This document shows positions 21,141 through 22,726 of a DNA stretch of 38,542 bases, piece after piece (the stretch's first letter is position 1; every line of letters starts with the position of its first letter). This DNA comes from an uncultured Erysipelotrichaceae bacterium (lineage in GTDB: Bacteria; Bacillota_I; Bacilli_A; RFN20; CAG-826), in the NCBI GenBank assembly GCA_902802905.1, contig CADCNT010000016.1:1-38542 (forward strand). The letters run 5' to 3'. Both the position numbers and the translations under genes were made by a program. The notes below the pieces were generated by a model. The model did not search any database. It had not been told where the DNA came from and saw only the letters and a list, made by a program, of their open reading frames with translations.

Positions 21141-21322
21141 ACCTCCCGAAAGTTTTATAAATATAAAGATTGTATTTAGTCTACCTTATCTAGCATTACC
21201 AAGACAATCTTTTTTTATTTATATAAATAACTTATAGGTTATTAACAAAGAAAAAAGCGACAAAGTCGCTTTCCTGTATGTAAATACTCGCAAATAATTA
21301 TAACTTTCGGGAGTTAGCGAGT
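21141..21322. repeat. Inverted repeats around the ribosome binding site of the 517-residue surface protein
   Basis: CTCCCGAAAGTT near 21144 and its reverse complement AACTTTCGGGAG near 21303 are matched over 11 bases, and AT-rich flanks extend the pairing. On read-through minus-strand RNA the distal copy would pair with the GGGAGG of the downstream gene. The distal copy also sits inside a local hairpin (ACTCGC/GCGAGT around TAACT/AGTTA). Confidence 0.5.
21250..21272 (-). terminator. Intrinsic terminator of the 407-residue surface protein gene
   Basis: The minus strand reads AAAGCGAC-TTT-GTCGCTTT followed by TTTC. Confidence 0.9.
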
Positions 21323-21335
21323 TATTACAACTTAA

Positions 21336-22559
21336 TTAGTTTTCGTGTTTCTTCTTGATTAAGAAGTAACCACCAACAGTGAGTAATGAGGCTGCTGCAA
21401 TTGTGGCAACAATAATTATCGAATTAACTGAAGACGAATTGTTTTGCAATTCGACTGCGTAGCTTGCAATAATAGTTGGATTTCTATCAGCAAAATCACC
21501 GCCATTTTTTGCATCTCTACATCCTGCATAGTGACCATAAATCCAGTCATAGCTACTAGCAAAAGCAATAATTTCGTCAACTGTTGAGCTTAATCCATCA
21601 GCAATATATTCTTTTGCACCTTCAGAAAGAACTGAGTATAAGCCAGCTTGAGATTTCCAAGCAGCTACAACCTTTTCAGAAGAGCCGTTTTCAGAAGTAT
21701 ATGGGCAGTTATCTTCCATAGCTTCCGTAAAGCCAGAAGCAAATTCCGTAGCTGCATTCAAATCAGCACTAGCGGCAGACGTTAATACATAATTTGCGTA
21801 CCAATCAGTTGTATATTGAATATTTGAAACAACAACAGTGTAAATAGCAGGTGTAGATACAACTACATTGCCATCATTGTCTTTAAAACTTTCTGATTGA
21901 ACTCCGTCAATTGTTACGGAAGCAGCCTGAATCCAAGATGTTTTATGATCTGAATCAAATTGAACCATTTTCATTTTTCCGGAAGCGCCAAACGTTACTT
22001 GAGCAGTAAATGTTCCTGAAGGTGATTCGGTTGCAGCAACTTGGCCATTAGGATACCAGCCATTTGTCCAACCACCTCTTAAATACTTACCAGCGGTAAT
22101 ATCAGGATACATTTCTACCCATGAACCAGTGCCTTTGCCACTACCAACAGATGAAGGAACAAAGCAGTTTGCTCCATTTGTAGGTATCGTTAAATCTTCA
22201 GTCTGGTTGTTATCACCACTCCATTTATAAATATCGAATATTACAAGAGTTTTGCTAGCATTAACTTCATACTTACAATATGTTTTGCTATTTACTGTTA
22301 CTGTATCAACAGGTGCAACTCCTGGCCAAGCAGACCCATCATCACCTTTGTTAAAAAAGTATGCATAGATTTCAGTGCTATCTACTCCCCAACTGCCCCA
22401 AGTGTTTGCAGCAGCACCAGTCCATTGAAAATAAATGTACTGAGGATTGTAATCTGCCTTCGCAGCTTTAGTCTCTTGTCTAGCACCCACACCAACGGCA
22501 GCACCAATACCAAGGCCTAAAGCTAATCCTAAAGTGATAAATAAATTTTTCTTTTTCAT
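21336..22559 (-). CDS. Membrane-anchored surface protein with CBM26-like module
   Basis: A 407-residue protein built like its neighbours: a signal segment (LGLALGLGIGAAVGVGARQE), beta-rich modules and a C-terminal anchor (IIIVATIAAASLLTVGGYFL, then IKKKHEN). Residues about 42-140 resemble a starch-binding CBM26 module (YIYFQWTG, EIYAYFFNKGDDGSAWPG, VIFDIYKW). Residues 155-260 hold a YLRGGWTNGW-type module. Residues 270-365 are helical with two Cys (ATEFASGFTEAMEDNC, then YDWIYGHYAGC). No LPxTG motif is present. Its promoter contains a G8 tract, so expression may be phase-variable. Confidence 0.78.
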   Translation of the reverse strand: MKKKNLFITLGLALGLGIGAAVGVGARQETKAAKADYNPQYIYFQWTGAAANTWGSWGVDSTEIYAYFFNKGDDGSAWPGVAPVDTVTVNSKTYCKYEVNASKTLVIFDIYKWSGDNNQTEDLTIPTNGANCFVPSSVGSGKGTGSWVEMYPDITAGKYLRGGWTNGWYPNGQVAATESPSGTFTAQVTFGASGKMKMVQFDSDHKTSWIQAASVTIDGVQSESFKDNDGNVVVSTPAIYTVVVSNIQYTTDWYANYVLTSAASADLNAATEFASGFTEAMEDNCPYTSENGSSEKVVAAWKSQAGLYSVLSEGAKEYIADGLSSTVDEIIAFASSYDWIYGHYAGCRDAKNGGDFADRNPTIIASYAVELQNNSSSVNSIIIVATIAAASLLTVGGYFLIKKKHEN

Positions 22560-22633
22560 AAAAGTTGTCTCCTTATGTCAGATGACAGTGCAACAATTAT
22601 TAGCCTAGAAGGCAAATAAATATAATTAGATAA

Positions 22634-22662
22634 ATAGTACCCCCCCCGTATGGTTTTGTCAA
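22634..22662 (-). promoter_or_regulatory. Promoter with G8 tract in the spacer (candidate phase-variable promoter)
   Basis: On the minus strand TTGACA (22657-22662) and TACTAT (22634-22639) are exactly 17 bases apart. Eight consecutive G residues (C8 at 22640-22647 on the plus strand) directly abut the -10. Slippage would change the spacer length and hence promoter strength. Confidence 0.75.
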
Positions 22663-22667
22663 CACAA

Positions 22668-22691
22668 AATAAAGAGTGGCTTAGGCCACTC
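22668..22691 (-). terminator. Intrinsic terminator of the 487-residue surface protein gene
   Basis: The minus strand reads GAGTGGC-CTAA-GCCACTC followed by TTTATTTTG. Confidence 0.9.
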
Positions 22692-22726
22692 CTTATGAGA
22701 CTTTCCTTTATACTTTTATTAGTTAA

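Follow-up and report, generated by a model that had tools for sequence, protein, structure and literature searches.

A poly-G promoter spacer as a predicted phase-variation switch of a putative surface protein in an uncultured Erysipelotrichaceae bacterium and its relatives

Main finding and proposed switch

We analysed a 38,542-bp stretch of DNA (hereafter, the window; 36.4% GC) from an uncultured Erysipelotrichaceae bacterium. It holds a predicted promoter whose spacer carries a G8 tract, upstream of the gene of P0001. The best-supported reading of this site, with a probability of about 0.8 judged from sequence comparison, is transcriptional phase variation of the porA type, brought about by slippage at the spacer tract. 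Comparative support for this reading is strong, because the geometry recurs strictly, the background is near zero, tract lengths differ between related promoters, the targets are exported, and MutS1 and MutL have apparently been lost in the lineage. The sequence-only reading of the window had suggested a phase-variable promoter in front of a glycan-binding-like surface protein; the comparative data support the promoter and the protein's features support the surface location, and the glycan-binding part has circumstantial hints at most.

Under the proposed mechanism, a sigma-70-type promoter, TTGACA-N9-Gn-TACTAT, would drive P0001. The G tract lies on the non-template strand and would change length by slipped-strand mispairing during replication, each one-G change shifting the spacer by 1 nt. 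The usual optimal spacer for sigma-70-type promoters is 17 nt. With n = 8, the spacer is 17 nt and the promoter is predicted to be ON; G7 and G9 (spacers of 16 and 18) would reduce expression, and G10 or more (spacer ≥19) would leave it low or OFF. We propose that such steps switch or grade P0001 expression heritably and reversibly. We infer that the G8 promoter is used, that the tract varies in the population and that eight is the ON length.

Promoter anatomy

On the minus strand, 22662..22634 reads TTGACA-AAACCATACGGGGGGGG-TACTAT, a 17-nt spacer with eight consecutive G, just as the sequence-only reading had it; the G make up the final eight bases and adjoin the -10 (Table 1). The G8 tract, which that reading had singled out as the sole long G/C run in the window, is indeed the only G/C run of ≥6 in the 38,542 bp. 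The genome (1.54 Mb, 25 contigs) contains five G runs of ≥7, and the four others all lie outside -35/-10 spacers, leaving the G8 tract as the only one between promoter hexamers. It thereby supplies the homopolymer of about eight or more between -35 and -10 that marks porA-type promoters. In a consensus scan, the predicted promoter ranked among the best promoter-like sites nearby, and the number of such sites in the neighbourhood did not exceed that in shuffled sequences. Terminator-like hairpins flank the P0001 unit on both sides, so P0001 would be transcribed mainly from the G8 promoter, as a single gene. A MerR-type long-spacer promoter was set aside by reasoning, as the poly-G tract is not a palindromic operator.

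Table 1. Features of the predicted poly-G promoter and its target gene (positions in the window).
Feature	Position	Strand	Basis or remark
-35 hexamer TTGACA	22657..22662	-	6/6 match to consensus
Spacer AAACCATACGGGGGGGG, 17 nt (9 nt non-G + G8)	22640..22656	-	Sequence; geometry compared class-wide
G8 tract, proposed slippage site, adjoining the -10	22640..22647	- (C8 on + strand)	Sequence
-10 hexamer TACTAT	22634..22639	-	4/6 match to TATAAT
5' leader, 74 nt from -10 to ATG, with AAGGAG ribosome-binding site before the ATG	22560..22633	-	Sequence
Terminator-like hairpin, 12 pairs, closely 5' of the -35; predicted to end the P0002 unit and isolate the promoter	22669..22696	-	Scan
P0001, 407 aa, putative surface protein	21336..22559	-	Signal peptide, modules, membrane helix
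Terminator-like hairpin 3' of P0001; P0001 predicted to form a single-gene unit	21251..21275	-	Scan

Recurrence of the poly-G spacer promoter

The recurrence of this arrangement was assessed in samples of increasing breadth. Within the family (224 genomes), the pattern TTGACA-N(6,14)-G5+-N(0,7)-TANNNT matched in 48 genomes from 16 genera, versus only about a dozen matches for the reversed pattern; where the tract had ≥7 G, it mostly adjoined the -10. In a class-level sample of 395 genomes, the stricter pattern TTGACA-N(5,14)-G7+-TANNAT yielded 85 listed sites in 36 genomes (25 genera). The class is taken to be Bacilli on the strength of two Anaeroplasmataceae records found in this sample at identical coordinates. 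Neither the reversed pattern nor a poly-C version matched anywhere in these 395 genomes. Since both strands were scanned, the poly-C test controls for run frequency and shows the specificity for G on the non-template strand. Among 84,980 species genomes, at least 117 stretches matched, mostly in metagenome-assembled genomes (MAGs) of gut Clostridia and Bacilli; the matches listed also included Saccharibacteria, spirochaetes, Streptobacillus, Helicobacter and others. A phage origin is unlikely, the pattern having matched in just one of 2.9 million viral contigs.

Within the genus, poly-G promoters stand before genes with a P0001-type leader and C-terminal module in three congeners: G002 (G10, spacer 20), G012 and G018 (both G10, spacer 17). 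The closest full-length P0001 homologue, in G008 (29% identity), has a consensus promoter, TTGACA-N16-TATAAT, without a G tract, so the tract has been gained or lost among relatives. About 10 nt 5' of TTGACA in G012 and G018 (L079, L084), we observed the palindromes CATTATACAGAGTATAATG and CATTATGCTTAGCATAATG, which may be terminators or operators.

The site is beyond chance, as the 85 sites against none in either class-wide control indicate. The opposing view, that a random G run without function happens to sit in an ordinary promoter, would agree with there being just one such site in the genome, with G8 being the shortest of the usual tract range and with the bare promoter of G008. It is nonetheless highly improbable, given that base composition leads one to expect about 4 × 10^-4 occurrences per genome of TTGACA, G8 and TANNNT at any of nine gaps, and that the three congeners carry such promoters before genes of the same type.

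Copy numbers were examined in 49 genomes picked for holding a site, which contained up to 32 copies per genome, with zero matches for the controls. The copy-rich genomes were G249 (32 sites), G265 (20) and G238, which is Streptobacillus notomytis (20), with L143, L192 and L126 as loci. In G249 and G265, promoter flanks are near-identical with a varying tract length. The promoters of all three genomes stand before genes of exported proteins where checked and look like a combinatorial set for surface variation.

Spacer geometry and tract length

Promoter geometry was strict on one side of the spacer and variable on the other. The non-G part measured 9 nt in 49 of the 76 unique class sites, where it was followed by G8 (n = 8), G9 (n = 15), G10 (n = 14), G11 (n = 11) or G12 (n = 1), giving spacers of 17–21. 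The window promoter has the same build (N9 + G8 = 17). Its G8 is among the shortest tracts found, so the slippage rate at this tract may be modest.

Tract length varied with the flanks kept, another mark of porA-type promoters, among several sets of related promoters. Same-flank promoters within one genome differed in G number in G362 (9/10), G590 (8/9) and G578 (10/11), those of G590 belonging to a 19-kb array of seven promoters, and flank-matched promoters in G249 and G265 had 9, 10 or 11 G. Between genomes, the congeners G001 (G10) and G009 (G9) share TTGACAAAATGGTC before homologous secreted-protein genes.

The strictness of the arrangement (a left part of 9 nt, a tract adjoining the -10, G confined to the non-template strand) would also fit a structural or protein-binding need, that is, a fixed promoter feature in which a G-rich spacer of invariant length in the population tunes promoter strength or opening, or binds a regulator. 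We regard this as unlikely: the differences in tract length seen between same-flank promoters would not be expected of a fixed element or binding site, and spacers across the poly-G promoters range from 15 to 21. The exported targets, which come from unrelated families, fit contingency loci better than a single regulon.

The window tract could also be a sequencing or assembly artefact of a homopolymer. Assembled homopolymer lengths are error-prone, and one congener assembly contains an implausible 71-G run (G014:C23 ~3718, L095) that is probably a sequencing artefact. An artefact is still the least probable explanation of the window site, because numerous assemblies made independently, some of them of cultured isolates (Streptobacillus notomytis, for example), place the tract likewise between the two hexamers, and the G8 tract has unique flanks on both sides; its exact count alone could be wrong.

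Most other assembled poly-G promoters have a spacer one to three bases above 17. If phase variation by slippage is the right mechanism, most assemblies would record reduced or OFF states and the window assembly the ON state, within the imperfect accuracy of assembled homopolymer lengths. A spacer of 17 was found at nine of the 76 class sites. Among the matches listed in L099–L215, it was rare (5 of 98, versus 19 with a spacer of 16 and 27 with 18), which may mean that assemblies mostly capture off-optimum states, or may reflect sampling bias.

Exported targets and P0001

Genes 3' of poly-G promoters encoded a predicted N-terminal export signal in 73 of 98 cases among the matches listed, compared with 146 of the 557 remaining genes at those loci (odds ratio 8.2, p-value 2 × 10^-19). 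Export was called by a simple hydrophobicity rule that counts N-terminal membrane anchors as well. Exceptions among the downstream genes included zinc-ribbon proteins and ABC subunits.

P0001 conforms to this trend. Its basic-hydrophobic N-terminus is a signal peptide, and its C-terminus forms a membrane helix (~377–400) followed by a basic KKKHEN tail; these features support the surface protein put forward in the sequence-only reading and suggest that P0001 is surface-exposed. Together with the motif-wide export enrichment, they provide the secreted or surface target typical of porA-type switches. The N-terminal and middle modules of P0001 are unrecognised. The C-terminal module (~270–406) recurs across the genus in dozens of proteins that otherwise differ, P0003 of the window among them, and resembles a shared surface anchor or stalk bearing variable outer parts. 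The neighbours P0002 and P0003 are of the same overall type as P0001.

As to the glycan-binding-like character attributed to P0001, searches of Pfam, NCBIfam and PDB sequences returned no recognised domain for this protein, a carbohydrate-binding module (CBM) included, and P0001 could not be counted as a CBM protein. The structure predicted for the single protein was too poor for use (mean pLDDT 37). In congener G018, the poly-G-driven gene is followed by one with a CBM26 match barely above the Pfam cut-off, and CBM matches in other relatives were all sub-threshold. A profile seeded from a CBM26-like relative matched nothing except its seed and thus provides no link between P0001 and CBM26. 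A GH53 glycosyl hydrolase gene in the P0001 cluster and the mostly sub-threshold CBM-type matches in relatives are circumstantial hints at a link to glycans.

Mismatch repair

The MutS1 model gave only a weak, sub-cut-off match in the host genome and in most of the family members sampled, and the MutS-like gene of the host scored above the cut-off as MutS2. MutL was not found in the host genome, and no match to it in the genus reached the cut-off. The host genome, which is 95.6% complete, thus appears to lack MutSL-type mismatch repair, and slippage should then go uncorrected. In meningococci, loss of mutS can raise the switching of mononucleotide tracts 1000-fold (PMC3639595). Class-wide, many poly-G-positive genomes carry MutS1; for this reason, mismatch-repair loss is not required across the class and was rejected as an explanation of how poly-G promoters are distributed within it.

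Comparison with known systems

Most known cases of promoter switching by slippage come from pathogens, Neisseria and Helicobacter among them. In Mycoplasma hyorhinis, sets of vlp surface lipoprotein genes each have their own homopolymer in the promoter region, which is poly-A, whereas that of the window promoter is poly-G. In Treponema pallidum, tprL reportedly has a promoter-associated poly-G tract. For Helicobacter canadensis, the published report describes poly-G in predicted promoter regions, with length varying in read data (PMC2823697). The tracts of both these species are promoter-associated, as here, and their phyla are unrelated to that of the host.

The closest likeness is to porA of Neisseria meningitidis, where surface expression falls step by step as the tract separating -35 from -10 goes from 11 to 10 to 9 G (PMC3639595). 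Both systems have poly-G in the spacer of a surface-protein promoter, similar tract lengths (9–11 G in porA) and one-G steps that alter the spacer. The promoters described here differ from porA in that their -35 is a perfect TTGACA, the left part of the spacer is mostly fixed at 9 nt and the tract adjoins the -10; they occur in Bacilli and related groups, some genomes having many copies, and their switching is predicted, whereas the grading of porA is experimental. In the gut commensal Bifidobacterium breve, replication slippage at a G-tract of a pilus locus controls surface structures (PMC9187656). That tract is intragenic and acts on translation, in contrast to the promoter tract of the window.

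Our search of the open-access literature, which leaves aside subscription journals and preprints, returned nothing relevant on this promoter class in gut Firmicutes. The type of mechanism is already known from porA; how widely it occurs in uncultured Firmicutes may not have been reported before. We think it likely, with less confidence than for the window promoter itself, that TTGACA-N9-Gn-TATAAT represents a type of phase-variable promoter, as yet uncatalogued, that is widespread among the uncultured Bacilli and Clostridia of the gut and scattered elsewhere, controls exported proteins and in some genomes forms 20–32 independently switching promoters that diversify the surface combinatorially. 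If this holds across uncultured gut Firmicutes, surface diversification via replication slippage would be routine in commensals. As the motif is simple, switch states could be scored directly from metagenomic reads.

Other G and C tracts

Several further tracts were noted. The host genome contains another G8 run (G000:C2:120317-120324, L001), which apparently lies within a coding region and is a candidate for frameshift phase variation. A G7–G8 run after GACC is repeated in the host genome and congeners (L074, L087, L092, L094, L096), preceded in four of these loci by a short hairpin such as CAAATACTTTGTATTTG. L096 and L087 had no Rfam match; L087 and L094 have identical flanks with G7 and G8. 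At L086 (G006:C25 ~4360), a C12 tract is found between TTGACG and TATTAATTTATAAT, before a secreted-protein gene, and is possibly a poly-C version of the switch. The G12 of L078 (G011:C1 ~222839) and the G10 of L089 (G013:C8 ~150), which lack TTGACA and each precede an AT-rich palindrome (TAATATTATAAATATTATAG or the like), are a different kind of site.
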